DNA of 64,000 nt. Origin: Salarchaeum sp. JOR-1. Lineage in GTDB: Archaea; Halobacteriota; Halobacteria; Halobacteriales; Halobacteriaceae. Below are positions 11,839-45,119 of the stretch, piece after piece. Both the position numbers and the translations under genes were made by a program. The notes beneath the pieces were generated by a model, which ran no database searches, was not told the DNA's origin, and worked only from the letters and a program-made list of their open reading frames with translations. How positions within the stretch are numbered: position 1 is the first letter of the stretch; each line of letters starts with the position of its first letter. The stretch spans positions 1,426,001 through 1,490,000 of the forward strand of contig NZ_CP042241.1 of the NCBI RefSeq assembly GCF_007833275.1, in the 5' to 3' direction.

Positions 11839-11848
11839 ACATACTTAT
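11839..11848 (+). promoter_or_regulatory. TATA element of Liv-type operon 1
   Basis: ACATACTTAT, about 42 nt before the ATG of the binding-protein gene. The identical decamer precedes the second Liv-type operon (28354-28363, minus strand), and both genes also share the start context TACCAATGGTTAACGA. The duplicate context is the main support. Confidence 0.55.
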
Positions 11849-11889
11849 TGTTCATGGGGGTTCTACGTGCTACCGGGTGCGGATTACCA

Positions 11890-13212: not shown

Positions 13213-13218
13213 CCCAGC

Positions 13219-16602: not shown

Positions 16603-18263
<1,661 letters not shown>

Positions 18264-18267
<4 letters not shown>

Positions 18268-18932: not shown

Positions 18933-19027
18933 AGCGGGGTGTCGCGCGCCCACTGGGTAAAGCCACCCGCCGCTGCGGCGCTCACCGGGACGCGAACACC
19001 GATACGGCTCGATGCCGTACGGCGCGT

Positions 19028-19543: not shown

Positions 19544-19633
19544 TACGTGCTGGACGACGCTGATATCGTGTAACCCGCATACTCACACGTACACTATGGT
19601 GGAGGGCCCTGGCGAGATGACGAACACCCGCGC

Positions 19634-20050: not shown

Positions 20051-20055
20051 GCGGC

Positions 20056-20442: not shown

Positions 20443-20522
20443 ACCCCGTGTAGTGCGTGGAGGGTAAGGAGGGTTGCGTCCGACCCCCCGAGGTTTTGCC
20501 GGTAGTCCGCGAACCACGGGGT

Positions 20523-23482: not shown

Positions 23483-23522
23483 TACCGCGGCTTGGAGCGC
23501 GACGGAAAAGAAGGGCGCGGAA

Positions 23523-26096: not shown

Positions 26097-26956
26097 TCGG
26101 TGAATTCACGGCCGAACAGGCCTTCGGGTTTCGCGAGCAGTATCAGTACCAGTACCACCAGTGACGCCAGTCCGCTGAGCGAGGAATCGACGTACGACAT
26201 CGTGAACGTCTCGAGGAAGCCGATGATGTACGCGCCGATGACGCTCCCGCGGATGGAGCCGATGCCCCCGAGGACGACGATGCTGAACGACAGGACGAGC
26301 GGCGCACGTCCCATGCTCCAGGACGCGGTCTGAATCGACCCGAGGAAGAGGCCGGCGAGGCCGGCGAACGCGCCCGCGAGCACCCACGTGTAGAGGTACA
26401 TGCGGTCGCTTTCGATACCGACGAGGGACGCCCCCTTCGTCGACATGCTCGTCGCGAGGATGGCCTTCCCGGTCTTCGTGTAGTTGATGGCGAAGAACAG
26501 GAGGCCGATGATGACCCAGGAGAGCGCGAACACGAGGAGGCTGTTCGCCTGGATGCCGCCCGCGATGGAGACCTGTCCCGTCAGGAGGGAGGAGATGACC
26601 GCGGGCTGCGTGCCGAACCCTTGCTTGATGATCTCTTCGACGGCGATGGCGGTGACGAGCGTGAGAATCATCACCGTTATCGGGTCGTCCTCGACGCGCT
26701 GAATCATCCCCTTGTAGAGCGCCGCGCTGAACAGCCCGGGTACGAGGATGGCGGCGAGCGCGCCGACCCAGATGCTAAAGCCGAACACTTCCGAGGCGTA
26801 GTACGCGCTGAACGCGCCGATGGTGACGGTCGCGCCGTGCGCGAGGTTGAGGACGCCGCCCACCCCGAAGATGAGGGTGAAGCCGATGGCGACGAGCGCG
26901 TACAGCGCGCTCATCATCACGGCGTTCGCGACGACGTCGATCAGTGGCAGCGCCAT
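26093..26956 (-). CDS. livH: ABC transporter permease, LivH family (operon 2)
   Basis: 287-residue permease. Seen: [19 protein letters not shown] near the N-terminus and [14 protein letters not shown] near the C-terminus, with about eight hydrophobic segments. One base separates it from the binding-protein stop. It is the pore partner of the adjacent LivM. Confidence 0.9.
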
Positions 26957-26957
26957 C

Positions 26958-28322
26958 TTATACCCAGGGCGGACTCTCGTACTCGCCGGCTGCGAGGCTG
27001 TCCGGGTAGATGGTGGTCTGCTTGCCGCCGTCCCCGCTCTCGGTCGGCTTCCACTGGAGCCAGAGCGGACGGACGCCGTTCTCGCCGGTTCGGTCGTACA
27101 CGACGTCGTGCGGGTACTCCGCGTTCTTCCCGTAGTACCGAACCGTGCCGGCAGTTCCGGTGAAGCTCATGCTCTCCAGTTCGGCGACCACGTCGTCGGG
27201 GTTCCGAGACCCCGCGTTCTCGGCCGCGGCCGCGTAGTTCTTCACGGCGTCGTACGCGATGTAGCCCGTGTAGACGGGGTACTTTCCGACCATATCGTGG
27301 TACGCGTTCGCGTACGGAACCGTCTTCTCCGTGATTTCGGAGTTCGGCGTCGCGGTGTTCTGGGTGACGCCGTACGCGCACGCGCCGTTGACGAGCCCCC
27401 AGTAGGAGGGGAGCTGCATCGGCACGTGGATGCCGCCGAACGCGAACGGACGCTGCTGTTTCGCGTACTGGACGAGCGCCGTGCTTCCGGAGTGCGCCAT
27501 CGCGACGAACGCGGCGTCCGCGCCGGACGCCTCCACCTGGTCGTAGATGGTGGAGAAGTCCTTCGTTTCGCCCGAGTACCGCTTCATCCCCGCGACTTCG
27601 ACGCCGGCGTCCGCGAGCTGGTTCCGGAGGACTTCGTCCACGGGCTCGGTCCACGTGTAGTCCTCGGTGAGGACGTAGACGGAGTCCCAGCCCATGTCGG
27701 AGAAGTTCGCTTCCGCGAAGTCCACCATGTTCGCGCCGAGGAAGTGCGCGTTCACGGGGCCGGTTCGGAACCAGTACTTGTACTTCTCGTACTCGTCCTT
27801 CAGCATCGTGGAGGCCTCGGGCGTCGCTGCGCCCGCGGTCATGTGGACTTTCTGCTGGCCCGCGATGCTGTCCATGAGGTTGAGGAGAACCTCGCTCGTG
27901 AACACGCCGGTCGTGAAGTCGACGTTCTCGCTGACGGTGAGCTCCTCGTACTTCGTCTTCCCGCGCTGGGGCTGTTCGTTCGTCGTCTTCACGAACACCT
28001 CGACGTCGTTTCCGAGGACGCCGCCGTTCGCGTTCAGCTCCTCGGCGGCGAGCTCCGCGGAGCGCGCGATAGAGTTCCCGATCGGGTTCTCCGTGCCCGT
28101 GTGTGAGGTGAGGACGCCGACTTTGAACGTGCCGCTCGGCGCGTCACTGCTGCTGCCGCCGCCGAGACAGCCGGCGGACGCCGCGAGGCCGGCCGCACCC
28201 GTTCCCTTGAGGAACGTCCGCCGATCCGCACTCGCCCCTATAGCGCTAACGATGTTTCGTTCCCCCTCGACTTCGTTACCAGAACAACGCCCATTGTCGT
28301 TCTGACTACCTTCGTTAACCAT
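26958..28322 (-). CDS. ABC transporter substrate-binding lipoprotein, HAAT type (operon 2)
   Basis: 454-residue receptor. Seen: an N-terminal polar region, Tat motif DRRTFLKGTG at 33-42, lipobox ASAGC with Cys52, then a type I binding fold beginning FKVGVLTSHTGTENPIG. First gene of the second importer. The first codons and the bases before them match the receptor gene of operon 1 exactly (TACCAATGGTTAACGA), although the proteins have otherwise diverged, pointing to shared ancestry of promoter and start. Ligand unknown; an amino acid or a carboxylate are both possible. Confidence 0.9.
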   Translation of the reverse strand: MVNEGSQNDNGRCSGNEVEGERNIVSAIGASADRRTFLKGTGAAGLAASAGCLGGGSSSDAPSGTFKVGVLTSHTGTENPIGNSIARSAELAAEELNANGGVLGNDVEVFVKTTNEQPQRGKTKYEELTVSENVDFTTGVFTSEVLLNLMDSIAGQQKVHMTAGAATPEASTMLKDEYEKYKYWFRTGPVNAHFLGANMVDFAEANFSDMGWDSVYVLTEDYTWTEPVDEVLRNQLADAGVEVAGMKRYSGETKDFSTIYDQVEASGADAAFVAMAHSGSTALVQYAKQQRPFAFGGIHVPMQLPSYWGLVNGACAYGVTQNTATPNSEITEKTVPYANAYHDMVGKYPVYTGYIAYDAVKNYAAAAENAGSRNPDDVVAELESMSFTGTAGTVRYYGKNAEYPHDVVYDRTGENGVRPLWLQWKPTESGDGGKQTTIYPDSLAAGEYESPPWV

Positions 28323-31501: not shown

Positions 31502-33172
31502 CTACTCGTCGTGGACGAGTACGTCGACAACGGTGGGGCCTGACTGGGCGAGCGCGTCGTCGAGCGCGGCGTCGAGGTCGTCCTCGGGGTCGACGCGAAC
31601 GCCGGTCGCGCCGTGGCTCTCGGCGTTCTTCGGGATGTCCACGGGCGGGTCGAAGTCCATCCCGACGTACTCGTAGTCCCCCTCGCCGAACAGCCCCTGC
31701 ATGTTGTTCTTGAGGATGCGGTAGTTCCGGTTGTCGGGAACGACGACGGTGAGGTCGAGGTCGTAGCGGGCCGCCGAGTAGAGGCTCTGCGGGTAGTAGA
31801 GGTAGGAGCCGTCACCGACGTGCCCGACGACCTGCCGGGGGTCGTCGCGCATCGACTCGGCGAGCGCCGCACCCACGGACGCGGGCAGGCCGTACCCCAG
31901 GCCGCCGCCCTTGTTCGAGATGGCTTGCTCGGGTTCGAGCGGCCACCGCGTGAGCAGTTCGTACTTCGCGGTCACGCCCTCGTCCACGATGTACGCGTCG
32001 GGCGCGGCGTCCCGGAGCGCGTCCACGAGTTCGCCCTTCGACCGCCGCGGGTCGTCGACGTCGTCGTCGCCCGCCATCTCCGCCTGCGCCATCTGCTTCA
32101 TCGCGGCGACGCGCTCCAGGCGGCTCTGGCGTTCGCCGTCGCTCACGCGGGACTCGACCGCAGCGGCGATCTCGGCCATCGTCTCGCCGGGGTCGCCGAG
32201 CACGGCCACGTCAGCGGGCTGGTTCTTCCCGAGCTGCCACGCGTCGTCGCCGACGTGGACGAACGTCGCGTCCGGCACGAGGTCGCCCGAGTGCGCGGTG
32301 AGCGTCGTGTTCGTCGAACACCCGACGAACGCGACCGTGTCGGTGTCGAGGAGCGTGCGCGCGGTGTCCTCGTCCGGCGGGATGTAGGACACCCACTGGT
32401 CGTGGCTCGCCGGGAAGTCCACCTCGCAGGCGAGAATTTCGGCGTGCACGCGCGCCCCCGCCGCCTCCGCCAACTCGACCGCGGCGTCCACGGCGTCCGT
32501 CCCGGCGCGCGCGACGCCGTCACCGACGACGAGCACGGGGTTCTCCGCGTCCGCGAACGCGTCGGCCGCCCGCTCGACCTGACTGCGGTCGCCGCGGCCG
32601 CCGCTCGGAACCGCGCCCAGGCGCTCGGGCGCGGCGTCCGTCTCCGCCATCATCACGTCCAGCGGGAGGCCGAGGAAGACGGGGCCGGTCGGCGGCGTCA
32701 GCGCGACGCGGAACGCCCGGCGGAGCATCGACGGGAGCGCCTCGACGTCGAGGACGTCCGCGCTCCACTTCGTGAACTGCTGGGTCATCTCCACGAGGTC
32801 GCCGGAGAGAATCGGCTCCTCGTGACGGAACTCGGTGGAGTGGTTGCCCGCGGTGACGACGAGCGGCGCGCCCGCGACGCTCGCGCCGTAGATGTTGCCG
32901 AGTCCGTGCGCGAGTCCGGGCGCGACGTGGAGGTTCGCCACCCCCACGGGGAGCACGGACTCGTCGTCGTCCGCGTGATAGCGCCGCGTGCTCGCGTACC
33001 CCGCCGCCATCCCGACCGCCACGTCCTCGTGCAGGCCGAGCACGTAGTCGAGGTCGCTGCCCGCGAGCGCGTTCATCACGGGAAGCTCGGTGGTGCCGGG
33101 GTTCCCGAAGACGTGCTGGACGCCGTACTGTTCGAGGGCGTCGACGAAGAGGTCCGCGCCCGAGTACCCCAT
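31502..33172 (-). CDS. Thiamine-diphosphate enzyme, benzoylformate decarboxylase-like
   Basis: 556-residue TPP enzyme of the pyruvate decarboxylase/acetolactate synthase superfamily. Seen: catalytic Glu in LGLHEDVAVGMA, the N-terminal PYR domain (FGNPGTTELPVM), a central domain ending VFVHVGDD-like, and the TPP/Mg motif from VGHVGDGSYLYY to VVPDNRNYR. NPGTTELP is characteristic of benzoylformate decarboxylases, suggesting non-oxidative decarboxylation of an aryl 2-oxo acid. Start overlaps the SDR stop by one base; a longer open frame upstream reads through the SDR and is rejected. Substrate is inference. Confidence 0.85.
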   Translation of the reverse strand: MGYSGADLFVDALEQYGVQHVFGNPGTTELPVMNALAGSDLDYVLGLHEDVAVGMAAGYASTRRYHADDDESVLPVGVANLHVAPGLAHGLGNIYGASVAGAPLVVTAGNHSTEFRHEEPILSGDLVEMTQQFTKWSADVLDVEALPSMLRRAFRVALTPPTGPVFLGLPLDVMMAETDAAPERLGAVPSGGRGDRSQVERAADAFADAENPVLVVGDGVARAGTDAVDAAVELAEAAGARVHAEILACEVDFPASHDQWVSYIPPDEDTARTLLDTDTVAFVGCSTNTTLTAHSGDLVPDATFVHVGDDAWQLGKNQPADVAVLGDPGETMAEIAAAVESRVSDGERQSRLERVAAMKQMAQAEMAGDDDVDDPRRSKGELVDALRDAAPDAYIVDEGVTAKYELLTRWPLEPEQAISNKGGGLGYGLPASVGAALAESMRDDPRQVVGHVGDGSYLYYPQSLYSAARYDLDLTVVVPDNRNYRILKNNMQGLFGEGDYEYVGMDFDPPVDIPKNAESHGATGVRVDPEDDLDAALDDALAQSGPTVVDVLVHDE

Positions 33173-33948
33173 CAGATTTCGGGGGACTCCTCGATGCGCG
33201 GGACGCCCGCCGCGGTCACCGTCTCGCCGACGATGTACGAGGAGGCGGGGCTGGCGAGGAACTGCGCGAGGTCGGCGATCTCCTCGCTCGTGCCGATGCG
33301 GCGCTCGACGTCGTCGCGCTCGATGTTGTCCGCGCTGACGCCCATCTGGGACTCGACGCCGGGCGTGGCGACGAACCCGGGCGCGATGCAGTTCACGCGC
33401 ACGTCGTCGCCCGACCACTCGTAGGACAGCGTCTTGGTGAGGTTGATGACGCCGGCTTTCGCCGCGCCGTAGTGACTCATCATCGGACTGCCGCGCTGGC
33501 CCGCGACGGACGCGAGGTTGACGACGCGGCCGCCGCCGTTCTCCCGCATGTGCTCGCCGGCGGCCTGCGTGCAGTGGTAGGTGCCGGTGAGGTTGATGTC
33601 CACTATCGTCTCCCAGCCGTTCTCGCTGATGTCCTCGAAGGGCGCCATGAAGGACGCGCCCGCGTTGTTCACGAGCACGTCCACCGACCCGAACTCCTCG
33701 ACGGTCGCCTGAACGAGCGCGTCGACGGCGTCCCGGTCGGTCACGTCGCACTCGACCGCGAGGGCGGTTCCGTCGTAGTCGCCGTCGTTGATGTGGTCGC
33801 TGACGGGGTCGACGTTCTCCTGTTCGCGCGAGCAGACGACGACGTTCGCGCCGTCGTCGGCGAACCGTTCCGCGATTGCTCGGCCGATGCCCGACGACGC
33901 GCCGGTGACGATGGCGGTGTCGCCCGCCACGCTGAATCTGCTTACCAT
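33172..33948 (-). CDS. Short-chain dehydrogenase/reductase
   Basis: 258-residue SDR. Seen: TGASSGIG, NNAG, catalytic Ser in NLASVAGQ, YGAAK and a C-terminal YIVGETVTAAG. The final segment lacks the usual VDGG motif and instead ends AAGVPRIEESPEI. The ATG at 33948 (MVSRFSVAG) is chosen over an upstream ATG ten codons earlier because a TATA-like TTTATTACC lies about 35 nt upstream. Operon with the benzoylformate-decarboxylase-like gene; a role in hydroxy/keto-acid conversion before decarboxylation is plausible. Confidence 0.85.
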   Translation of the reverse strand: MVSRFSVAGDTAIVTGASSGIGRAIAERFADDGANVVVCSREQENVDPVSDHINDGDYDGTALAVECDVTDRDAVDALVQATVEEFGSVDVLVNNAGASFMAPFEDISENGWETIVDINLTGTYHCTQAAGEHMRENGGGRVVNLASVAGQRGSPMMSHYGAAKAGVINLTKTLSYEWSGDDVRVNCIAPGFVATPGVESQMGVSADNIERDDVERRIGTSEEIADLAQFLASPASSYIVGETVTAAGVPRIEESPEI

Positions 33949-33960: not shown

Positions 33961-34045
33961 TACCCGTTTTCGGTTCATCGGTAATAAATCCGCGTCCGCC
34001 GGAGCGACCGGTAAGATAATGGCAAATGTTACAGAATGTCATGGT

Positions 34046-35593
34046 ATGGACGTTCCGGCATACCTACAGAACGCCGAGCGAACGAACGCCGCCGCGCTGT
34101 TCGACGCGACGGCCGACCAGCGACCCGACGCCACAGCAATCGAGGGCGAGAACCGCTCGTTCACGTTCAGCGACCTCCGCGAGCGCTCGCGCGCGCTCGC
34201 CGGCGGCCTCCACGACCGCGGCCACACCGAGGGCGACCGCCTCCTCCTCTACCTCCCGAACTGCCCCGAGTACGTCACCACCATCCTCGGGGGCCTCCGC
34301 GCCGGCGTCGTCGTCTCCCCCGTCAACCCCCAGTACAAGGCCCGCGAACTCGCACACCAGCTCGACGACACCGACGCGAGCGCCGTCGTCACCCACCCCG
34401 CCCTCGTCGAATTCGTCCACGAGGCCGCCACCGACATCGGCGCGGATCCCGACGTGCTCACCGTCAGCGAATCCACCGCGGACACGACCGCGCTCCACGG
34501 GGTGTCCGGCGACCCGACGACGGTGGACGTGGCCGCGGACACGACCGCGATGCAGCCCTACACCTCCGGAACCACCGGACAGCCGAAGGGCGTGCTGCTC
34601 ACGCACGGCAACCTCCGCGCACAGGCGTTCTCGGGGTTCCAGTTCACCACCCTCCCGCCCGAGGAGCAGCGCGAACTCGTCTTCCTCCCGCTCTACCACA
34701 TCACGGGGTTCACGCACTCCACGTGGCAGACCCTGATTCGCGGCGGTACGGCGTTCGTCCGGAACCCCGCGGAGTGGAGCGCCGAACGCTGCATGCGGGA
34801 AATCGAAGACCACGAGATCACGAGCTTCATCGGCGTCGCGACGATGTTCGTGGACATGGTGAACGACGAGTCCTTCGGCGAGTACGACCTCTCCTCGCTC
34901 GACACCGTCAACGAGGGCGGCGCGAAGATGCCCGTCGCCGTCCAGGAGCGATTCGAGGACAGCACGGGCGTCGCGATGAGCGAAGGCTACGGGCTCACCG
35001 AGACCACCGCCGCCACCCACACCGGCGTCGGGTCGTCGTTCGGGTACAAGCCCGGCACCATCGGTCAGCCGCTCCGCATGACGGACGCGAAAATCGTGGA
35101 CGCCTCGGGGAACGAGGTCGAACCCGGCGAGACCGGAGAACTCCTCGTGCGCGGCCCCCAGGTGATGAAGGGCTACCACGACCTCCCGGACGCGACCGAC
35201 GAAGCGTTCACCGACGAAGGCTACTTCCGCACCGGCGACATCGCGCGCCGGGACGCCGAGAACTACTACGAGATCGTCGACCGAAAGAAGCACATGATCA
35301 ACACCGCGGGCTACAACGTCTACCCGAGCGAGGTCGAATCCCTCCTCTACGAACACCCCGCCGTGGCCGACGCCGCCGTCGTCGGCATCCCGGACGACCG
35401 CCGGAACGAGACCGTGAAGGCGTTCGTCGTCCGAACAGCCGACGCGGACGTGACCGCGGACGACATCCGGGAGTTCTGCCTCGACAACCTCGCGGAGTAC
35501 AAACACCCCCGGGAGGTCGAGTTCGTCGACGACCTGCCGCGGACGGCGAGCGGGAAGGTGCAGAAGTTCAAACTGGTGACCGACGATGCGTGA
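34046..35593 (+). CDS. Acyl-CoA synthetase (ANL superfamily)
   Basis: 515-residue AMP-forming ligase. Seen: YTSGTTGQPKGV from residue 172, GYGLTETT, IVDRKKHMINTAGYNVYP hinge, and TASGKVQKFK with the catalytic Lys at the C-terminus. Layout is of the 4-coumarate/fatty-acyl-CoA ligase group. The ATG at 34046 (MDVPAYLQN) is chosen because TAAGATAA-like bases lie about 30 nt upstream; an ATG nine codons earlier is less likely. First gene of a four-gene unit with an SDR, a HAD phosphatase and a membrane protein, divergent from the TPP enzyme operon. Confidence 0.9.
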   Translation: MDVPAYLQNAERTNAAALFDATADQRPDATAIEGENRSFTFSDLRERSRALAGGLHDRGHTEGDRLLLYLPNCPEYVTTILGGLRAGVVVSPVNPQYKARELAHQLDDTDASAVVTHPALVEFVHEAATDIGADPDVLTVSESTADTTALHGVSGDPTTVDVAADTTAMQPYTSGTTGQPKGVLLTHGNLRAQAFSGFQFTTLPPEEQRELVFLPLYHITGFTHSTWQTLIRGGTAFVRNPAEWSAERCMREIEDHEITSFIGVATMFVDMVNDESFGEYDLSSLDTVNEGGAKMPVAVQERFEDSTGVAMSEGYGLTETTAATHTGVGSSFGYKPGTIGQPLRMTDAKIVDASGNEVEPGETGELLVRGPQVMKGYHDLPDATDEAFTDEGYFRTGDIARRDAENYYEIVDRKKHMINTAGYNVYPSEVESLLYEHPAVADAAVVGIPDDRRNETVKAFVVRTADADVTADDIREFCLDNLAEYKHPREVEFVDDLPRTASGKVQKFKLVTDDA

Positions 35594-36341
35594 GGGCGTC
35601 GCGTTCGTCACCGGCGCGAGCCAGGGCATCGGCGAGGCCATCGCGCGGCGGTTCGCGGAGGGCGATTTCGCGGTCGCGCTCGCCGCGCGCAGCGACACCA
35701 CGACCCTCGCCGACGAACTCGGGGACGCGCTCGCCGTCGAGTGCGACGTGACCGACGAAGCGAGCGTCGAATCAGCCATCGACGCGACCGTCGCGGAGTA
35801 CGGCGGACTGGACGTGCTCGTGAACAACGCCGGAATCGCCGGCCCGACGCAGCCGGTCGAAGACGTCGAGCGCGAGGAGTGGGCTGCGACCCTCGAGACG
35901 AACCTCACCGGCCCCTTCCTCTGCGCGAAACACGCGGCGAGCGCGCTCCGCGACAGCGACGAGGGGAGCATCGTCAACGTCTCCTCGGTGGGCGGGAAGC
36001 GCCCCTACCCGAACCGAAGCCCGTACGCCGCCTCGAAACTCGGCCTCGTCGGACTCGGCCGTACGCTCGCCGCCGAGTTCGGCGAGGACGGAGTCACCGT
36101 GAACACCATCTGTCCCGGTCCGGTCGCCGGCGACCGCATCGAGAACGTCATCGAGAAGCAGGCCGAAGCGCGCGACACCACGCCCGAGGACGTGAAACGC
36201 CAGGAGTACCTCGGGGATCTCATGCTGGACGAGATGGTGACGCCCGCGGAAGTCGCCGACGTCGCGTACCGCCTCGCCGTCCAGCACCGACACGTCACCG
36301 CCCAAGACGTTAACGTGGACGCGGGCATGACGTGGTACTAG
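35586..36341 (+). CDS. Short-chain dehydrogenase/reductase
   Basis: 251-residue SDR. Seen: TGASQGIG, NNAG, NVSSVGG, YAASK, and a C-terminal NVDAGMTWY in place of VDGG. It overlaps the CoA-ligase stop by 8 nt and abuts the HAD gene exactly, so it is co-translated. Likely a 3-hydroxyacyl-CoA or hydroxyacid dehydrogenase in the same acid-degradation route, by context only. Confidence 0.87.
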   Translation: MREGVAFVTGASQGIGEAIARRFAEGDFAVALAARSDTTTLADELGDALAVECDVTDEASVESAIDATVAEYGGLDVLVNNAGIAGPTQPVEDVEREEWAATLETNLTGPFLCAKHAASALRDSDEGSIVNVSSVGGKRPYPNRSPYAASKLGLVGLGRTLAAEFGEDGVTVNTICPGPVAGDRIENVIEKQAEARDTTPEDVKRQEYLGDLMLDEMVTPAEVADVAYRLAVQHRHVTAQDVNVDAGMTWY

Positions 36342-37037
36342 ATGGAGTACGACGCGGTCTTCTGGGACATCGGTGGCGTGCTGCTCGACGTGGACTCGGT
36401 GCGCGAAGCCCACACGCGGTTCATGGAGCGCTTCGTCGCCGCGCACGGTCTCGACGCCGACCCGCGAGCGGCGCTCGAGGAGTGGCGCGGCGTCGTCGGC
36501 CGCCAGTTCCGCGAACGAGACGGGAACACGTACCAGTCCGCGTACGAGGCGTACGCGCTCGCGCTCTCCGAGGTCGTCGGCCGCGACCTCGACGACAGCG
36601 AGTGGGTCTCGCTCTTCCGCGCGACCTCCCGGCGGTACCTCCGACCGACCCCGCACGCACGCGAGGTCGTCGCCGCGCTCGCCGACGCCGGCGTCTATCA
36701 GGGAATCGTGAGCGACGTTGACACTGATGAGGGCGAGTTCATCCTCTCCTTGTTCGGCGTTCTCGACCACGTTGACGACGTGACGACGAGCGAGGCCGTC
36801 GGCCGTACGAAACCCGACGACGCGATGTTCGAGACCGCGCTCGCGAAGAGCCGCGCCGCGCCCGAGCGAACGGTGATGGTCGGGGATCGCTACGACCACG
36901 ACGTGGCCGGGGCCGCCCGCCACGGAATCAGCGGCGTCGCGTTCGGCCCCGACGCACACGGCCCGGACGCGAGTCACCGAATCCACGATCTCCGCGACGT
37001 ACTCGACATCGTCGGCGTCCCGCGGGGTGACCGATGA
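36342..37037 (+). CDS. HAD-superfamily hydrolase
   Basis: 231-residue phosphatase-type HAD enzyme with a helical cap. Seen: motif I FWDIGGVLLDVD, motif II IVSDVDTD, motif III Lys in GRTKPDD, motif IV MVGDRYDHDVAGA. The beginning of motif I is DIGGV rather than DxDGT, as in the epoxide-hydrolase-N/ACAD10-type HAD group. Such a HAD is fused to APH kinase and acyl-CoA dehydrogenase in animal ACAD10; here those two are separate genes 2-3 kb away. The direct substrate is not known. Confidence 0.85.
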   Translation: MEYDAVFWDIGGVLLDVDSVREAHTRFMERFVAAHGLDADPRAALEEWRGVVGRQFRERDGNTYQSAYEAYALALSEVVGRDLDDSEWVSLFRATSRRYLRPTPHAREVVAALADAGVYQGIVSDVDTDEGEFILSLFGVLDHVDDVTTSEAVGRTKPDDAMFETALAKSRAAPERTVMVGDRYDHDVAGAARHGISGVAFGPDAHGPDASHRIHDLRDVLDIVGVPRGDR

Positions 37038-37309
37038 CGCTCCCCGAACCGTCCACGGTCGCCGCCGCGCTCCACGAACGCCTGCTTCGACCAGTGCGGC
37101 GCGACCTCCGGCCGTTCCTCCACGAGACCGTGGAACGCGGCGACCCAGTGAGTCACGTCGTCCTCGCTCTCCTCGCGGGGCTGGTCGCGTTCGCGGTTAC
37201 GACACTCGCCGCGGCGCTTGTTGTCGTCCCGGCAGCGCTCTACGCGGTCGTGTACGGGTTCGTCGCGGCTACCTTACGCCTCGTGAACGCGTTCCGCTAT
37301 CGCCGGTAG
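37034..37309 (+). CDS. Small membrane protein of unknown function (91 aa)
   Basis: 91 residues: a soluble basic N-terminal helix (about 1-40), then a long hydrophobic stretch with one or two membrane spans and a basic tail NAFRYRR. Not recognised. It overlaps the HAD stop by four bases (ATGA), so it is translationally coupled to that operon, and its 3' end overlaps the convergent sirtuin gene by 36 nt. Confidence 0.65.
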   Translation: MTLPEPSTVAAALHERLLRPVRRDLRPFLHETVERGDPVSHVVLALLAGLVAFAVTTLAAALVVVPAALYAVVYGFVAATLRLVNAFRYRR

Positions 37310-38029
37310 CGCGTCCGTCACGTCCGCCTGGAGCACGACAGACGCGAGTTCGTCCGCCCGCGTCTCGTCGAGGTTCACCACGACCAGACTGCCGTCGCGC
37401 GCGGCGGTCGCCGGGAGCGAGGCCGCGGGGTCGACCGTCAGCGAGGATCCGACGGCGAGGAAGGCGCCGCTGCGCTCCGCGAGGTCGCGGGCGTCGTGCA
37501 GCGCATTCGCCGGGAGTTGCTCGCCGAACAACACCACGTCGGGTTTGAGAACGCCGCCGCACTCGCAGGTCGGCGGGAGCTCGCCGTCCGCTGCGCGCCG
37601 TCGCGCGTCGGCCGCGTCGCTCCGCCGACCGCACTCCTCGCAGGCGACGCGCTCGGCGTTCCCGTGGAGTTCGATGACGCGGTCGCTCCCCGCGTCTTGG
37701 TGGAGGCCGTCCGTGTTCTGGGTGATGACGCCGTCGATGGCACCCGTGGCTTCGAGGTCTGCGAGCGCGCGGTGGGCGGCGTTCGGTTCGACGCCGTCTG
37801 GCCGCATCGCGTCGTAGAGGTCGAGCCGGTCGCGCCAGAACCCCGCGGGGTCGCGGTCGAACCGCCGCCGGTGGAAGTCCTGCGGGTCGAACTTTTCGCC
37901 CCAGATGCCGTCCTCGCCGCGGAAACTTGGGATGCCGGACGCGGTGGAGACGCCCGCCCCAGTGAGCACACTCACGGTCTCCGCGTCCCGCACCAGCGCC
38001 GCGACGCGCGCTATCGCTTCGTCGTCCAT
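37274..38029 (-). CDS. Sir2-family NAD-dependent protein deacylase (sirtuin)
   Basis: 251-residue sirtuin removing acyl groups from protein lysines with NAD. Seen: GAGVSTASGIPSFR at 24-37, TQNTDGLH at 103-110, catalytic His122 in ELHGN, zinc Cys130, Cys133, Cys155 and Cys157, and the NAD motif VGSSLTVDP. The ATG at 38029 is preferred because upstream in-frame sequence is not conserved-looking. In other prokaryotes sirtuins reactivate acyl-CoA synthetases; three such ligases are in this window, so regulation of them is a sensible hypothesis. Confidence 0.93.
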   Translation of the reverse strand: MDDEAIARVAALVRDAETVSVLTGAGVSTASGIPSFRGEDGIWGEKFDPQDFHRRRFDRDPAGFWRDRLDLYDAMRPDGVEPNAAHRALADLEATGAIDGVITQNTDGLHQDAGSDRVIELHGNAERVACEECGRRSDAADARRRAADGELPPTCECGGVLKPDVVLFGEQLPANALHDARDLAERSGAFLAVGSSLTVDPAASLPATAARDGSLVVVNLDETRADELASVVLQADVTDALPAIAERVHEA

Positions 38030-38215
38030 ACCTGTGGGTGGGCGTTCTCGCGGAAAAGTGGCGTGCAGGCGACACGGCCAGTCGCGCACGGGAGTGTGTC
38101 GCCGTCACCGAACCGGACTCCCGCACGCCGCTCGTCAGTACATCACCCGCCGCTGGCCGCGCCCTCCTATTTGAACGTTCACCTCTGTGTGGGGCGGCGC
38201 GGAAGCGGAGCCGTC
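38030..38215. other. Non-coding region between the sirtuin gene and the hairpin array
   Basis: Part of a 298-nt gap between two minus-strand genes. It contains the upstream region of the sirtuin gene and no convincing open frame. Composition stays GC-rich and I see no clear TATA box. Confidence 0.4.
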
Positions 38216-38327: not shown

Positions 38328-39542
38328 CTAGAAGCGCGTGAGGGCTTCGAGTTCGAACTCGTGTTGGTCTGCGTCGCTGAGTGCGTCGCGGGCGATGACG
38401 CGTTTGTGGACTTCGTCCGCGCCGTCGACGATGCGGAACTGGCGGACGCTCTCGTAGAAATCGGCGAGCGGGAGGTCTTTGCCGATGCCGTTCCCGCCAC
38501 ACATCTGAATGGTCTGGTCGATGACGTTCTGGCAGGTGTTCGCGGCGAACACTTTCGTCATGGCGACGGGGATGCGGGCCTCGTTGCCCTGATTGATCTG
38601 GCGGGCGGCGTGCCGGACCATGGTGCGGGCGGCGTGGAGGTTGATTTCGGCGTCCGCGATTTCGAATCGGAGGGCTTGTTTCTCGCTGAGCGGCTCGCCG
38701 AAGGCTTCGCGTTCCGAGATGTAGGCTTTCGCGATGTCGAGCGCGCGCTGGGCCATCCCGGAGTACCGCATGCAGTGGGTGAGGCGGGCGGGGCCGAGGC
38801 GGGCTTGTGCGTGACTGAAGCCTTCGTTGCGCTCGCCGAGCAGCGCGTCCTCGGGGACGCGCACGTCGTCGTATTCGATTTCGGCGTGGCCGATGCCGGT
38901 GACGTTCCCGCCGGTGTGGGGGATGTCGCGAACGACGTTCACGCCGTCGGTGTCCGCATCGACGAGGAAGAGCGAGCAGCCGTTGTAGGGGTGGGCGTCG
39001 GGGTCGGTGACGGCCATGACGATGAGCACGTCGGCTTCGGTGCCCTGCGTCGTCCACCACTTGTGGCCGTTGATGACCCATTCGTCGCCGTCTTTTTCGG
39101 CGGTGGTCGCCATCATCTTCGGGTCGCTCCCGCCGCCCTGAATCGGTTCGGTCATCGAGAACGCGCTCCGGATTTCGCCCTGGACGAGTGGACGGAGGTA
39201 CTCCTCCTTCTGGGCTTCCGTGCCGAATGTTTCGAGGGTGTGCATGTTGCCCTCGTCGGGGGCTTCGACTTTGATCGCGGGCGCGCCGAGGAGGCTGCGG
39301 CCGGCTTCCTCGAACACGGGGAGCATGTCGCGGTAGCTGAGGCCGTGACCCCCGTACTCCTCCGGAAGGTGGGGCGCGTACACGCCGTAGTCGCGCGCTT
39401 CCTCGCGGAGTGCGTCCAGTTGGTCGTCGCTGATGGGGTCACCGCCCAGCACGTCGCGCTCGACGGGGATGACGACCTCGTCGACGAACTCACGGGTCTT
39501 CTCGGCGAACTCGACCGCACGCTCGGAATCGTCGTACTCCAT
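38328..39542 (-). CDS. Acyl-CoA dehydrogenase, ACAD11/LvaC type
   Basis: 404-residue flavoprotein. Seen: SAFSMTEP and the WWTTQG-type substrate/FAD region, a central REAFGEPL motif, and the C-terminal MCGGNGIGKDLPLADFYE with VDGADEVHKR. These C-terminal features match the ACAD10/ACAD11 and bacterial LvaC group, which act on 4-phosphoacyl-CoA intermediates, rather than classic short-chain dehydrogenases. The ATG at 39542 follows a minus-strand TATA (CTTTTTACAT, 39563-39572) by about 25 nt, so the mRNA is probably leaderless. Divergent from the APH-type kinase gene, with which it shares a 102-nt control region. Confidence 0.88.
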   Translation of the reverse strand: MEYDDSERAVEFAEKTREFVDEVVIPVERDVLGGDPISDDQLDALREEARDYGVYAPHLPEEYGGHGLSYRDMLPVFEEAGRSLLGAPAIKVEAPDEGNMHTLETFGTEAQKEEYLRPLVQGEIRSAFSMTEPIQGGGSDPKMMATTAEKDGDEWVINGHKWWTTQGTEADVLIVMAVTDPDAHPYNGCSLFLVDADTDGVNVVRDIPHTGGNVTGIGHAEIEYDDVRVPEDALLGERNEGFSHAQARLGPARLTHCMRYSGMAQRALDIAKAYISEREAFGEPLSEKQALRFEIADAEINLHAARTMVRHAARQINQGNEARIPVAMTKVFAANTCQNVIDQTIQMCGGNGIGKDLPLADFYESVRQFRIVDGADEVHKRVIARDALSDADQHEFELEALTRF

Positions 39543-39562
39543 ACGCTCTCTTGGTGAATACA

Positions 39563-39572
39563 ATGTAAAAAG
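39563..39572 (-). promoter_or_regulatory. TATA box of the acyl-CoA dehydrogenase gene
   Basis: CTTTTTACAT on the minus strand, 21-30 nt before the ATG at 39542. It lies in the divergent region shared with the kinase gene, whose own TATA-like ATACCTATTC is near 39611-39620. Confidence 0.55.
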
Positions 39573-39644
39573 ATTCGTCCTAGTTGGCATCGATCGGTAA
39601 TTCCTATCCATACCTATTCGTACGAGGAGCTAGAACCCCCGGGT

Positions 39645-40718
39645 ATGGCAGACGATACGAGCGAGGCCTACTTCGCTCGGCTCGTGGACGAGGACGCGTT
39701 GCGGGCGTTCCTCGAAGCGGAACTCGGGCCGACGGACGCCTACGATGTCGAGCGGCACGCGGAAGGACACTCGAACGAGACGCTGTTCGTCCAGTGGGGC
39801 GACGACGATCTCGTAATCCGGCGACCGCCGCCGGGCGAGACGGCGGACACCGCGCACGACGTGCTCCGAGAGTACCGCGTCATCGACGCCCTCCAAGACA
39901 CGGACGTGCCGGTGCCGCCGACGGTCGCGGCGTGTGACGACCACGCCGTCATCGGGAGCGACTTCTACGTGATGGAGCGCGTGCCCGGCGACGTGCTGCG
40001 CGACGACGAGCCCGAGCGGTTCGCGAACCTCGACTCCCGGCAGCGAATCGGCGAGGAGCTCGCGGACACGCTCGCGGCCATCCACGGCGTGGACTACGAG
40101 GCGGTCGGGCTCGGCGAACTCGGGCGGCCCGCGGGCTACACGCGCCGACAGGTCGACCGCTGGGGAAAACAGCTCTCGTGGGCGTTCGAGGTCACCGCGG
40201 ACGACCGCGAGGTTCCGAAGCTGAAGCGCGTCGGCGACTGGCTGGACGAGCACTGCCCCGAAGACCACCCGAAGACACTCGTCCACGGCGATTACAAGCT
40301 CGACAACGTCCTGTACGCGCCGGGTACGCCCCCCGAACTGACGGGCGTGTTCGACTGGGAGATGAGCACGCTCGGAGACCCGCGGGCCGACCTCGGGTGG
40401 ATGCTCTCCTACTGGCGGGACGCGAAAGACCCCGAGCCCGCCGTCCCCGAACTGGAGGCGACGTTCATGCAGCGAGAGGGGTATCCGACCCGGGTCGAAC
40501 TCGTGGCGCGCTGGGAGAACCAGACTGGCTTCGACTTCGAACACGAGCGGTTCTACCGCGCGCTCGCCGTCTACAAGCTCGCCGGACTCGGCGAGATGTT
40601 CTACCGGCGCTACCTCGAGGGGAACTCGGACGACCCGATGTATCCGCTGATGGAGGAACGCGTGCCCGCGCTCGCAGACCGCGCCGTCCGCATCATCGAG
40701 GGGGAGGAGCCGCTGTGA
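39645..40718 (+). CDS. APH/choline-kinase-fold phosphotransferase, LvaA/ACAD11 kinase type
   Basis: 357-residue kinase of the aminoglycoside-phosphotransferase fold. Seen: Brenner-type catalytic loop LVHGDYKLDNVLYA (His214, Asp216, Asn221) and metal site FDWEMSTLGDPRADLGW (Asp237). The DWExSTLGDPxADL string is typical of ACAD10/11 kinase domains and LvaA, which phosphorylate the 4-hydroxyl of 4-hydroxyacyl-CoA. It is not an antibiotic-resistance gene by this evidence. Stop overlaps the MaoC start (GTGA), coupling it to a hydratase, and the matching acyl-CoA dehydrogenase is divergent. Confidence 0.88.
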   Translation: MADDTSEAYFARLVDEDALRAFLEAELGPTDAYDVERHAEGHSNETLFVQWGDDDLVIRRPPPGETADTAHDVLREYRVIDALQDTDVPVPPTVAACDDHAVIGSDFYVMERVPGDVLRDDEPERFANLDSRQRIGEELADTLAAIHGVDYEAVGLGELGRPAGYTRRQVDRWGKQLSWAFEVTADDREVPKLKRVGDWLDEHCPEDHPKTLVHGDYKLDNVLYAPGTPPELTGVFDWEMSTLGDPRADLGWMLSYWRDAKDPEPAVPELEATFMQREGYPTRVELVARWENQTGFDFEHERFYRALAVYKLAGLGEMFYRRYLEGNSDDPMYPLMEERVPALADRAVRIIEGEEPL

Positions 40719-41164
40719 CGTACTACGAGGACTTCGACGTGGGCGACGTTGAGGAGTTCGGGTCGTACACGGTGTCGAAGGAGGAAATCGTGGAGTTCGC
40801 GGAGCAGTTCGACCCGCAGCCGTTCCACGTGGACGAGGAGGCGGCGGCGGAGTCGCCCTTTGGCGGGCTCATCGCGTCCGGCTGGCACACGGCGTCGCTC
40901 TGGATGAAGCTCATGGTCGAACACCACTACGACGACGCGGCGAGCCTCGGATCGCCGGGCGTGGAGGAGATTCAGTGGACCGAACCCGTTCGGCCCGGTG
41001 ACACGCTCTCCGTCCGCCTCGAAGTCGCGGAGAAACGCCCGCTGGAGAGCGACCCCTCGCGGGGATTGCTCACCACGGACACCGCGATGTTCAACCAGGA
41101 CGACGAGGTCGTGATGACGATGCGCGGAAAAGCGTTCTACGAGCGGCGGAACCCCGACGCCTAG
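40715..41164 (+). CDS. MaoC-like hydratase/dehydratase
   Basis: 149-residue single hotdog-domain protein. Seen: FAEQFDPQPFHVDEEAA, carrying the catalytic Asp and His of the (R)-specific enoyl-CoA hydratase/MaoC family, then PFGGLIASGWHT. The GTG at 40715 overlaps the kinase stop, so the two are translationally coupled. Predicted to hydrate the enoyl-CoA released by the kinase/dehydrogenase pair (inference). Its stop shares CTAG with the convergent crotonase gene. Confidence 0.88.
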   Translation: MTYYEDFDVGDVEEFGSYTVSKEEIVEFAEQFDPQPFHVDEEAAAESPFGGLIASGWHTASLWMKLMVEHHYDDAASLGSPGVEEIQWTEPVRPGDTLSVRLEVAEKRPLESDPSRGLLTTDTAMFNQDDEVVMTMRGKAFYERRNPDA

Positions 41165-41958
41165 CGCCCCTCGAACTCGGGATCTCTGTCTTCGAGGAAC
41201 GCCCGGACGCCTTCTTCGTGGTCGTGCGTGTCGAAGACGACGCCCTGCGCGACGGCCTCGTCCGTCATCGCCTGGTCGATGGTCTTCTCGAACCCTTCGT
41301 CGATGAGGCGTTTCGCGTGCCGGAACGCCGCCGTCGGGCCGGACGCGATTCGTTCGACCATCGCGTCCGCCTTCGCGTCGAACTCCTCGCTCCCGTAGAC
41401 GTGGTTGAACAGCCCGAGGTCGTGCGCGCGCTCCGCGCCCATGATCTCGCCGGTGTAGACGAGTTCCTTCGCGACGTTCGTCCCCACCACGCGCGGCAGG
41501 AGGTAGGACGTGCCGGCGTCCACGGAGAGGCCGACCTGCCGGAACACGAACCCGATGCTCGCGTCCTCGGTCGCGAGCTGGACGTCGCACGCGATGGCGA
41601 GGTTCGCGCCCGCGCCCACGGCGGGGCCGTCCACCTTCGCGATGGTGGGGAGCGGGAACTCGACGAGGAGCGCGAGCGTCTCGCTCGTCGTGCGCTCCAG
41701 GGTCTTCACGGCCTCCTCCAGGGATTCGTCGGAGTCGAGTCGGTTCTTCATCGCGGCGATGTCGCCGCCGGCGCTGAACGCGCCGCCCGACCCCTGCACG
41801 ACGACGGCGCGGGCGTCGTCGACCTCGTCGCGGACGTGTTCGAGGCGGTCGCGCAGGCCCGCGGTTAGCTCGCGGGAGAGCGCGTTCCGGCGCTCGGGCT
41901 GGTCGAGCGTGATGGTCGCGACACCGTCCTCCACGTCGAGCGTGACTGCGTCACTCAT
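41161..41958 (-). CDS. Enoyl-CoA hydratase/isomerase (crotonase) family protein
   Basis: 265-residue crotonase. Seen: GSGGAFSAGGDIAAM, the first oxyanion-hole segment; GPAVGAGANLAIACD, the second; and FRQVGLSVDAGTSYLLPR, where the typical second catalytic Glu region carries Asp, as in PaaG-type isomerases. Activity could be hydration or double-bond isomerisation. The ATG at 41958 (MSDAVTLDV) is chosen over an in-frame start four codons upstream. Next to MaoC, dehydrogenase and kinase, it completes a small beta-oxidation set. Confidence 0.87.
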   Translation of the reverse strand: MSDAVTLDVEDGVATITLDQPERRNALSRELTAGLRDRLEHVRDEVDDARAVVVQGSGGAFSAGGDIAAMKNRLDSDESLEEAVKTLERTTSETLALLVEFPLPTIAKVDGPAVGAGANLAIACDVQLATEDASIGFVFRQVGLSVDAGTSYLLPRVVGTNVAKELVYTGEIMGAERAHDLGLFNHVYGSEEFDAKADAMVERIASGPTAAFRHAKRLIDEGFEKTIDQAMTDEAVAQGVVFDTHDHEEGVRAFLEDRDPEFEGR

Positions 41959-42035: not shown

Positions 42036-43406
42036 TTATTCTTCGGGGATGACTTTTCCGGGGTTGAGCAAGCCCTTCGGGTCGATGGCGTCCTTCACGG
42101 CCCGCATCACGTCCACGGTGTTCGCGTGCTCGTCGCTCATGAAGCCGCGTTTTCCGATGCCGACGCCGTGTTCGCCGGTCGCGGTGCCGCCCATCTCGAT
42201 GGCGGCCTGCACGACCTCGTTGTTGTACGCCATCGCGCGAACCACGTGGTCTTCGTCGTCCCGGTCGACGAGCGGCGTGTAGTGGAGGTTGCCGTCTCCC
42301 GCGTGCCCGACGAGCGGGACGAGCAGGTCGTACTCGTCGGCGAGTTCGTGCGCGCGCTCCACGATGTCGGGGTAGTTCGTGATCGGGACGACCACGTCGC
42401 CGATGACGGCCACGTCGAGGTCGGGGTCGTACGCGCGCGCCGCGGGCAGGGCCTCGCGGCGGGCCTCCCAGACGTCCGCCATCTCGTCGCCGGGCTCGAT
42501 CCACTCGACGACCCCGTGGTCGCGGCAGAGGTCCTCGACGAACGCGTAGTCCTCGTCGATGCCGCTGGTGTTTCCGTGGAGTTCGACCAGGAGGGTCGGG
42601 CGCTCGGCGAGCGTGAGGTCGTCGCGGTTCTCGTTCAGGAGTTCGATGGACTGCGCGTCCATGAACTCGATCGCGCCGGGTTTCACGCCCGCGCCGATGA
42701 CGTCGCTGACGGCGCGGCAGGCGTCGCGCGCGCTCTCGAACGCGACGAGCGCCGCCCGCTTCTCCGCGGGGATGCCGGCGAGTTCGACGGTCGCGTCCGT
42801 CACCACGCCGAGCGTGCCCTCGCTCCCGACGAGCAAGTCCGTGATGCTGTACCCCGACGAGGTCTTCACGACGTTCCGGCCGGCCTCCACGACCTCGCCG
42901 TCGGGGAGGACGGCTTCGATGCGGCGGACGTGGTCGCGGGTCTCGCCGTACCGGACGGCGTTGAACCCGCTCGCGTTCGTCGCGATCATCCCGCCGATGG
43001 TCGCCACGTCGCCGCTGGAGATGCCGGGCGGGAAGCGGAGGCCGTCGCCGGCGAGCGCCTCGTTCAGGTCGTCGTAGACGACGCCGGGGCCGACGCGCGC
43101 GGTGAGCGTGTCCGGGTCGGCGTCCACCCACGTCATCTCCTTCGTCGAGAGGACGATCCCGCCCTCGACCGGGATGGCGTTCCCTTCGAGGCCGCTCCCG
43201 CCGCTCCACGGCGTCACCGGAACGTCCCGCTCGTACGCCGCCGCGAGCACGTCCGAGACCTCGTCGGTGGTCTCCGGCCACACGACCGCGTCGGGCGTCG
43301 ACGGGTGGTGTGGGCTGGCGTCCCGGGCGTACTGCTCGCGCCGCGATTCGGTGAACGAGCACTCGGCGTCGAGGTCTCGGAGGAACGAGACGTCGTGGTC
43401 GGTCAT
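42036..43406 (-). CDS. FAD-linked oxidase, GlcD/D-lactate dehydrogenase type
   Basis: 456-residue flavoprotein of the VAO/PCMH family, oxidising a 2-hydroxy acid such as glycolate or D-lactate. Seen: FAD segment VTPWSGGSGLEGNA and ISSGDVATIGGMIATNASG, the substrate/metal site VPLVGHAGDGNLHY, and TGEHGVGIGKR close to the C-terminus. No Fe-S domain is attached, so a separate electron acceptor is needed. It is divergent from the TPP enzyme gene at 43488 across 81 nt. The start ATG at 43406 fits family length. Confidence 0.88.
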   Translation of the reverse strand: MTDHDVSFLRDLDAECSFTESRREQYARDASPHHPSTPDAVVWPETTDEVSDVLAAAYERDVPVTPWSGGSGLEGNAIPVEGGIVLSTKEMTWVDADPDTLTARVGPGVVYDDLNEALAGDGLRFPPGISSGDVATIGGMIATNASGFNAVRYGETRDHVRRIEAVLPDGEVVEAGRNVVKTSSGYSITDLLVGSEGTLGVVTDATVELAGIPAEKRAALVAFESARDACRAVSDVIGAGVKPGAIEFMDAQSIELLNENRDDLTLAERPTLLVELHGNTSGIDEDYAFVEDLCRDHGVVEWIEPGDEMADVWEARREALPAARAYDPDLDVAVIGDVVVPITNYPDIVERAHELADEYDLLVPLVGHAGDGNLHYTPLVDRDDEDHVVRAMAYNNEVVQAAIEMGGTATGEHGVGIGKRGFMSDEHANTVDVMRAVKDAIDPKGLLNPGKVIPEE

Positions 43407-43487: not shown

Positions 43488-45119
43488 ATGCGCGTGAGCG
43501 AGGCCGTCGTCGACCGATTGGTCGCACACGGCATCGATACGGTGTTCGGCATTCCCGGAAAGCAAACCCTCCCCCTGAACGACGGCATCGGGTCGCGTGA
43601 CGGCATCGACTTCGTCGTCGCCCGCCACGAGACCGCCGTCACGCACGAGGCGTGGGGGTACGCCGAGACGTCCGGTGAGATGGCGGCGACATGCGTCGTC
43701 CCCGGTCCCGGCGACATGAACGCGATGAACGGCCTGAAGAACGCGCTGAACGACTGCACGCCCCTCCTCCACCTCGCCGTGGAGACCGAACCCGAGGTTC
43801 GGGGCGGCGACGGCATCCACGAGACGCCGCCCGACACGTACGACAACGTCGTGAAGGAGAACGTCCTCGTGGAGAACCCCGAGGCCGCGCTCGCGGAAAT
43901 CGAGCGCGCCATCGCGATCGCCCAGACCGCGCCGAAGGGCCCCGTCCGCGTGGGCATCCCGAAGAACTTCCTCCCGATGGACGTGACGCTCGCCGAACCC
44001 GGAGACTACGCGACGGAGTCCGTGCGCGGCGTGGACGAGGCCGCGCTCGGCGACGCCGCCGAGCACCTGAACGAGGCCGAGAACCCCGTGGTGCTCGCGG
44101 GCGGCGGCGTGCGCTCCGCGGACGCGTCCGGCGCGCTCGTCGGCGTCGCGGAGGCCCTCGACGCGCCCGTCGTCACCACGTACAAGGGAAAGGGGACGAT
44201 TCCGGAAGACCACGACCTCTCCGCGGGCGTGCTCTGCGGCGGCGCGAGCCCCGACCTCCTCGCCCTGCTCTCGGAGTCGGACGCCATGCTCGCGGTCGGC
44301 ACGGACTTCGACGCGGTCGCCACCCGCTCGTGGACGGTCGACGTTCCGGACACCCTGGTGCACGTCACGCTCGACCCCGAGGACGTGGGGACGGGATACG
44401 AGCCGTCGGTGGCGCTCGTCGCGGACGCGGGCGCGGCGCTCGCCGGTCTCGCGGGTCGCCTCGAACACACCGAGACCCGGGACGGCGCGGCGCGCGCGCA
44501 GGCCGTGCGGGAGGCGGACGCCGACCGGATGGCCGACCTCCGCGACACCGCACAGGCGCCGCTCACGTCGGTCGCCGCGCTCTCGGCCGTCCGCGACGCC
44601 ACCCCCCGCGACGCGCCCGTCTCCGCGGACGCCGGCGGCTTCCGCATCTGGACGCTCGTCTCCTTCCCCGCGTACGGCCCGCGCTCGTACGTCAATCCGG
44701 GGTCGTGGGCGACGATGGGAACCGGCCTCCCCGCGGCCATCGGCGCGGCGCGCGCGAACCCCGGCGAGGGCGTGCTCGCGCTCTCCGGCGACGGCGGCCT
44801 CATGATGTGCGTTCACGAACTCCACACCGCCGCCGTCGAAGACCTTCCGGTGGTGCTCGTCGCGTTCAACAACAGCGACTACGCCATCATCTCCGAGGAG
44901 GCCGAGCGCTCGTACGGCCTCGACGCCTACGACTGGCCGGAAACCCCGCTCTCGCTCTCGACGATTGCGGAGGGAATGGGCGTGACGACCGCGCGCGCCG
45001 AGACGCCCGACGAGATTCGCGAGGCCGTCGACGCGGCGTTCGACCGGGACGGCCCGACGCTCGTCGAGGTGCCGACCGACCCGGCCGAACCGCAGGCGAG
45101 CGTCCACATGCGCGACTAA
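43488..45119 (+). CDS. Thiamine-diphosphate enzyme (acetolactate synthase large-subunit-like)
   Basis: 543-residue TPP enzyme. Seen: N-terminal FGIPGKQTLPLND, catalytic Glu in VVARHETAVTHEA, central FAD-like domain without clear FAD residues, and the TPP motif ALSGDGGLMMCVHEL to VAFNNSDYA. There is no regulatory small subunit nearby, so it is probably not the biosynthetic acetolactate synthase; 2-oxo acid decarboxylation or carboligation is more likely. An in-frame extension back to 42126 runs antisense through the oxidase gene and is rejected. Confidence 0.85.
   Translation: MRVSEAVVDRLVAHGIDTVFGIPGKQTLPLNDGIGSRDGIDFVVARHETAVTHEAWGYAETSGEMAATCVVPGPGDMNAMNGLKNALNDCTPLLHLAVETEPEVRGGDGIHETPPDTYDNVVKENVLVENPEAALAEIERAIAIAQTAPKGPVRVGIPKNFLPMDVTLAEPGDYATESVRGVDEAALGDAAEHLNEAENPVVLAGGGVRSADASGALVGVAEALDAPVVTTYKGKGTIPEDHDLSAGVLCGGASPDLLALLSESDAMLAVGTDFDAVATRSWTVDVPDTLVHVTLDPEDVGTGYEPSVALVADAGAALAGLAGRLEHTETRDGAARAQAVREADADRMADLRDTAQAPLTSVAALSAVRDATPRDAPVSADAGGFRIWTLVSFPAYGPRSYVNPGSWATMGTGLPAAIGAARANPGEGVLALSGDGGLMMCVHELHTAAVEDLPVVLVAFNNSDYAIISEEAERSYGLDAYDWPETPLSLSTIAEGMGVTTARAETPDEIREAVDAAFDRDGPTLVEVPTDPAEPQASVHMRD

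Follow-up and report, generated by a model that had tools for sequence, protein, structure and literature searches.

A split ACAD11-type kinase and acyl-CoA dehydrogenase pair predicted to remove the 4-hydroxy group of acyl-CoA esters in haloarchaea

What might a haloarchaeon do with a kinase of the APH fold and an acyl-coenzyme A (acyl-CoA) dehydrogenase (ACAD) whose genes lie back to back? The question is raised by a locus of Salarchaeum sp. JOR-1, contained in a 64,000-nucleotide stretch of contig NZ_CP042241.1 (positions 1,426,001 to 1,490,000) that was analysed as a whole and is referred to as the window; coordinates are those of this stretch. The answer proposed here is that the pair very probably amounts to an unfused, two-gene ACAD11, predicted to remove the 4-hydroxy group of its substrate before β-oxidation. 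The core of the locus is as follows:

38328-39542, minus strand: ACAD of the LvaC/ACAD10/11 family, predicted 4-phosphoacyl-CoA phosphate eliminase; 404 aa, ATG start at 39542, Pfam ACAD domains
39559-39567, no strand: palindromic operator-like site TACAATGTA, in the ACAD/kinase intergenic region
39645-40718, plus strand: APH-fold kinase of the ACAD11 type, predicted 4-hydroxyacyl-CoA kinase; 357 aa, Pfam APH
40715-41164, plus strand: MaoC-type enoyl-CoA hydratase, overlapping the kinase stop codon by 4 bases

The ACAD and kinase genes are transcribed divergently from an intergenic region of 102 bp (39543-39644) which, judging from gene orientation, serves the ACAD on one side, kinase-MaoC on the other, and nothing else. 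The motifs on which the initial annotation relied (VDGADEVHKR in the ACAD, HGDYKLDN and DWEMSTLGDPRADL in the kinase) are all present, and the coupling of MaoC to the kinase that it described is borne out by the 4-base overlap. The same overlap occurs in Haladaptatus salinisoli, and a MaoC relative lies near the kinase in four of the related loci (L048, L054, L072 and L081).

The identity of the dehydrogenase can be read from a few residues. In mouse ACAD11 the diagnostic positions are R626, H634 and R637, which belong to the phosphate pocket with its HCMR motif, together with R631 and the base D753; mutation shows R626, H634 and R637 to be essential in ACAD10/11, alanine or leucine substitutions there being the most disruptive (PMC12440821). 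A helix-breaking proline is a further diagnostic feature of the family (PMC11342911). At eight aligned positions, the window ACAD, mouse ACAD11 and LvaC of a Pseudomonas aeruginosa plasmid (from an lva operon with an annotated lvaB) all read PRRHCMRD. In the alignment this signature was found in each of 57 haloarchaeal members and 23 bacterial relatives, and in none of 25 conventional haloarchaeal paralogues. The catalytic residue, within VDG, is an Asp equivalent to D753 instead of a Glu, and the Pro of APDEGNM aligns to mouse ACAD11; equating the Pro of APDxGNM with the published helix-breaking proline is an assignment made in this analysis. The best relatives of the window ACAD in the PDB were 4hr3 of M. 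abscessus (279 bits) and ACAD11 (212 and 211 bits), MCAD-like enzymes scoring ∼190 bits or less. The three best Foldseek matches of its AlphaFold model (predicted local distance difference test score 84.5) were again 4hr3 and two ACAD11 structures, 2wbi and 8v3u.

Trees were built by a quick maximum-likelihood procedure with branch support by the Shimodaira-Hasegawa-like approximate likelihood ratio test (SH-aLRT) only. Rows with internal stop codons were excluded from two alignments of this analysis. In the ACAD tree (83 rows) the LvaC/ACAD10/11 family was split from conventional ACADs with a support of 100. The haloarchaeal proteins formed a single clade (100), weakly sister (87) to the bacterial clade that includes LvaC, with mouse ACAD11 and its bacterial relatives on the other side of the family (96). 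Phylogenetic placement had been named in advance as an observation that could overturn the assignment; the window protein fell within the LvaC/ACAD11 clade, not among the ordinary dehydrogenases. By its residues and its position in the tree, it belongs to the phosphate-eliminating LvaC/ACAD10/ACAD11 family, and the phosphate-pocket signature together with the tree rules out a conventional ACAD. A search for a closer bacterial source of the haloarchaeal ACAD found none among plasmid relatives of 42–45% identity, which group with LvaC or ACAD11.

The kinase was related by sequence to PDB entries 9o56 (210 bits) and 3dxp (185 bits) and also to the kinase domain of ACAD11, the 25-hydroxy steroid kinase 9fsg scoring 62 bits; its predicted fold was best matched by 3dxp and second-best by 9fsg. 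It keeps the equivalents of the catalytic D220 and N225 and the two CoA-contact arginines (αC R-E and R176). All of these, plus a conserved Trp, are common to 53 of 53 haloarchaeal kinases, ACAD11, 3dxp and 9o56; the αC arginine was placed by its adjacency to a conserved Glu, the PDB-chain count being two residues off the published R86. The haloarchaeal kinases formed one clade (SH-aLRT 99) that groups with ACAD11-type kinases and, in agreement with the initial annotation, not with unrelated APH kinases. A separate clade (99) was made up of LvaA and two kinases whose loci contain a DUF6285 (LvaB) gene; in it, LvaA and one LvaB-linked kinase lack both CoA-contact arginines and the third lacks one. 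The gene for LvaB (DUF6285, PF19802) was found in none of 117 haloarchaeal genomes, two control genomes being positive and annotated LvaB matching PF19802. An LvaA/LvaB-type kinase is ruled out by the tree and by this absence, and an aminoglycoside resistance kinase by tree placement and by a score of 43 bits against NCBIfam NF033068, whose cut-off is 205. The kinase is therefore classed, on its tree position, its residues and the absence of LvaB, as being of the ACAD11 type and predicted to act on 4-hydroxyacyl-CoA. The split ACAD11/LvaA-LvaC system of the initial annotation thus stands in part: it is a split ACAD11-type kinase with an eliminase of the LvaC/ACAD11 family, and not an lva operon, since the kinase is not LvaA-like.

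A side observation concerns LvaB itself. Kinases of LvaB loci (L099, L190, L194) lack one or both CoA-contact arginines, and LvaB-free kinases keep them, which suggests that LvaB may take over the CoA contact of the missing arginines.

Both proteins are widespread in haloarchaea. Among 244 haloarchaeal genomes, strong matches to the kinase were present in at least 124, to the ACAD in at least 120 and to both in at least 119, six having one only (genome and pair counts given here are lower bounds). The association is strong (Fisher 2e-62, the genomes not being statistically independent), and among the matches listed, kinase and ACAD occur in exactly the same 44 of 75 haloarchaeal genera. Close kinase-ACAD pairs were divergent in 62 of 76 cases, spread over 26 genera, where ∼0.1 chance neighbours would be expected; both the recurrence of the pair and the co-occurrence are far beyond chance. 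In a phylum-wide sample, 17 of 217 genomes were matched at E ≤ 1e-70, all of them haloarchaea. Named carriers include Haladaptatus salinisoli, halophilic archaeon DL31 and Haloferax mediterranei ATCC 33500. In CP002989.1 the products of Halar_0303 and Halar_0304 bear the public names 'aminoglycoside phosphotransferase' and 'Isovaleryl-CoA dehydrogenase', which are probably misannotations.

Counted from the ACAD start codon, the palindrome TACAATGTA lies 17–25 nt upstream, and next to it, on the same strand as the ACAD, is a T-rich, TATA-like stretch. The divergent pairs of haloarchaea often have such a site. Sites of the ACAWTGTAA type numbered 28 in 1.25 Mb of related loci, and 26 of these were located ≤260 bp upstream of module genes, stretches that make up 6% of the DNA searched. 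The motif was first found in the intergenic set; independent support comes from its recurrence upstream of kinase, ACAD and short-chain dehydrogenase (SDR) genes that stand apart from the divergent pair, as observed in eight loci (L080, L087, L090, L092, L093, L096, L041 and L045). The site looks operator-like, and a regulator binding the palindrome would control the divergent pair. The Salarchaeum genome holds three exact TACAWTGTA sites: that at 39559-39567, one inside an unrelated open reading frame (ORF), and one in front of an ORF without known role that lies close to a CoA ligase. No regulon beyond the module is claimed for this genome.

The neighbouring genes, among them candidates for the remaining steps, lie on both sides of the pair:

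33172-33945, minus strand: SDR1, partner short-chain dehydrogenase, divergent from the synthetase-SDR2-HAD operon
34019-35593, plus strand: AMP-binding acyl-CoA synthetase, first gene of this apparent operon
35586-36341, plus strand: SDR2, overlapping the synthetase gene and abutting the HAD gene
36342-37037, plus strand: HAD-like protein with FWDIGGV, the second Asp of DxD replaced by Gly
37034-37309, plus strand: small ORF at the end of the apparent operon, whose gene ends overlap or abut
37274-38089, minus strand: Sir2-family deacylase (Pfam SIR2), on the ACAD strand and directly downstream of the ACAD
41161-41958, minus strand: crotonase-family enoyl-CoA hydratase/isomerase, convergent with MaoC
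42036-43406, minus strand: GlcD-like (glycolate-oxidase-like) flavin adenine dinucleotide (FAD) gene, 78 bp upstream of the crotonase

The crotonase had been placed under the common divergent control region, an idea that its orientation rules out: it converges on MaoC and has the GlcD-like gene upstream.

In the pathway that we propose, the acyl-CoA synthetase would convert a 4-hydroxy acid into its CoA ester, or do so with a 4-oxo acid whose ester an SDR would then reduce. The APH-fold kinase would phosphorylate the 4-hydroxyl with ATP, and the FAD enzyme, by means of its Arg/His/Arg phosphate pocket and Asp base, would eliminate the phosphate, yielding a trans-2-enoyl-CoA with no net oxidation. 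MaoC, the crotonase, a 3-hydroxyacyl-CoA dehydrogenase and a thiolase could then carry out the rest of β-oxidation (hydration, oxidation and thiolysis); alternatively, MaoC might divert (R)-3-hydroxyacyl-CoA to polyhydroxyalkanoate. The Salarchaeum genome contains eight ACADs, five thiolase matches and four strong 3-hydroxyacyl-CoA dehydrogenases. Levulinate or 4-hydroxyvalerate, 4-hydroxybutyrate and longer, lipid-derived 4-hydroxy acids are all possible substrates. On pHME132 of Haloferax mediterranei, the kinase and ACAD occur together with an HAD, an SDR that is 81% identical to window SDR1, a 3-hydroxyacyl-CoA dehydrogenase-hydratase fusion, a conventional ACAD and an acyl-CoA ligase, and 79 of 116 SDR1 orthologues lie ≤10 kb from a kinase or ACAD gene, among the matches listed. 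SDR1 is a candidate 4-oxo/4-hydroxyacyl-CoA oxidoreductase with an LvaD-like role, and the AMP-binding synthetase would play that of LvaE.

Relatives of the HAD-like protein were found in at least 80 genomes, each of which also has the kinase (p 1e-32), the linkage being within 10 kb in 62 of the 80; where the distance to the kinase is under 1 kb (31 genomes) the HAD gene is directly upstream and on the same strand in every case. The closest NCBIfam model to the window HAD is TIGR02253, and the motif FWD(I/V)GGV, with the second Asp of DxD missing, was present in all 15 haloarchaeal HADs examined. Some HAD enzymes without the second Asp are active phosphatases. The HAD domain of ACAD10 likewise has no complete DxD; it restrains its own kinase and has negligible phosphatase activity (PMC11342911). 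The haloarchaeal HAD is accordingly a candidate partner of the kinase, as a restraint or as a phosphatase. In bacteria, a histidine phosphatase gene often adjoins that of the 4-hydroxyacyl-CoA kinase (eight loci: L102, L104, L110, L115, L126, L168, L190 and L194), the gene order in Thermus brockianus being ACAD, kinase, DUF6285, histidine phosphatase. Taken with the linkage of the haloarchaeal HAD and the HAD domain of ACAD10, this makes a counter-acting partner look like a recurring part of kinase-eliminase systems. It is conceivable, and offered tentatively, that the haloarchaeal protein is a free-standing equivalent of the ACAD10 HAD which restrains the kinase or removes phosphate from stalled 4-phosphoacyl-CoA; a counter-acting partner would then be a recurring need in animals (an HAD), bacteria (a histidine phosphatase) and haloarchaea (again an HAD).

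Other neighbours were recorded as well. A Sir2-family gene placed as in the window, on the ACAD strand and directly downstream, occurs in 10 haloarchaeal genomes; of the 77 kinase-bearing genomes for which a Sir2 match was listed, 20 have it ≤5 kb from the kinase or the ACAD (∼0.2 expected). Genomes with a Sir2 gene linked in this way include G142, G072, G210, G239, G128 and G030. Two thiamine-diphosphate enzymes flank the module (31502-33169, minus strand, and 43572-45119, plus strand); because relatives of the first (66–69%) are near the module also in two other loci (L041 and L087), the module may include a step on a 2-oxo or 2-hydroxy acid. Positions 80-6432 and 11848-28322 encode a CoA ligase, an iron alcohol dehydrogenase, a thiolase-like protein and parts of two branched-chain-type ABC transporters; they make up a broad region of organic-acid catabolism, with several systems of unclear substrate. 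Rfam and tRNA scans of the window gave no matches.

Several observations weigh against the two-gene ACAD11. The kinase and ACAD genes are not close neighbours in 46 of the 119 genomes that have both, and in the window the Sir2 gene and genes of other catabolic routes lie in between those of the module. We know of no assayed haloarchaeal enzyme of the LvaC/ACAD10/ACAD11 family. The window ACAD is 36–41% identical to bacterial ACAD11-type proteins and ∼44% to P. aeruginosa LvaC, and since the haloarchaeal ACADs form a deep and separate clade, their substrate preference may have shifted. The same phosphorylation-elimination chemistry might act on another hydroxyacyl-CoA (branched, isoprenoid or cyclic, or with the hydroxyl at another position), by analogy with the related 25-hydroxysteroid kinase. 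To this point the depth of both the ACAD and kinase clades, the rank of 9fsg among the kinase fold matches and the systems of unclear substrate in the window; however, 9fsg is far more distant in sequence than 9o56 or 3dxp, and all phosphate-pocket and CoA-contact residues equal those of characterised 4-hydroxyacyl-CoA enzymes, so we consider a different substrate class unlikely. That an ordinary acyl-CoA dehydrogenase merely adjoins an unrelated APH-type small-molecule or antibiotic kinase, with a resemblance to ACAD11 at the level of fold only, is what the database names imply, but it is extremely improbable given the catalytic Asp in place of Glu, the intact HCMR pocket, the far-under-cut-off scores for aminoglycoside kinase models and the shared 44 genera, and its strong form is refuted by the motifs and by the clade membership of both proteins.

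A two-gene ACAD11 thus remains the preferred reading, and its chemistry and protein families are already known. The bacterial enzymes of 4-hydroxy acid breakdown were reportedly identified in 2017. Those of mammals followed in 2024–2025, in two papers that do not mention archaea (PMC12440821, PMC11342911). The initial annotation regarded the pathway as undescribed in haloarchaea, and no account of it was found there, nor any report of a 4-hydroxy-acid kinase/eliminase pathway in archaea, in the open-access literature searched. As far as found, what is new is the occurrence in archaea, the divergent arrangement of unfused genes, a kinase of the ACAD11 type that has no LvaB, an HAD partner encoded separately, and the operator-like site in common. 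The predicted pathway would be extended to a third domain of life and gain a third deep clade, and the names 'isovaleryl-CoA dehydrogenase' and 'aminoglycoside phosphotransferase' would be corrected for genes in 44 of the 75 sampled haloarchaeal genera. Haloferax mediterranei takes up γ-butyrolactone as a source of 4-hydroxybutyrate for bioplastic (PMC3880725); its use of 4-hydroxy acids, 4-hydroxyvalerate for example, is predicted. A genetically tractable archaeon in which HAD, kinase and eliminase are separable genes also offers a route to the function of the HAD unit: were the haloarchaeal protein the equivalent of the ACAD10 HAD, the unexplained function of the latter would become directly testable through separate genes.

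How, then, does the haloarchaeal module compare with known systems? With animal ACAD11 and ACAD10 (PMC12440821, PMC11342911) it shares αC R-E, R176, D220 and N225 in the kinase, R626, R631, H634-C-M-R637 and the base D753 in the ACAD, and the expected sequence of phosphorylation followed by phosphate elimination; the animal proteins are single polypeptides, while haloarchaea have two separate, divergent genes of a distinct clade. An HAD part is found in ACAD10 and not in ACAD11, and in haloarchaea it is a separate gene. The likeness to the ACAD10 HAD is one of motif and gene position: the second Asp of DxD is missing in both, and the order HAD-kinase-ACAD of ACAD10 is mirrored by the HAD gene directly upstream of the kinase in the 31 genomes mentioned above. 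The Pseudomonas lva operon (LvaA/LvaB kinase, LvaC, LvaD SDR and LvaE synthetase) resembles the haloarchaeal module in its LvaC-type ACAD and linked SDR and acyl-CoA synthetase, but its LvaA lacks the two arginines, LvaB is present and the genes form a single operon, whereas the haloarchaeal genes are divergent and include an additional HAD and MaoC. Bacterial clusters of the ACAD11 type (Deinococcus, Planctomycetes, Acidobacteria and Burkholderia) have, like those of haloarchaea, kinase and ACAD as distinct genes next to which SDR and MaoC genes are found and, in several, a phosphatase-family gene beside the kinase; in these bacteria the partner is a histidine phosphatase rather than the HAD of haloarchaea, and the ACADs fall into separate subclades.

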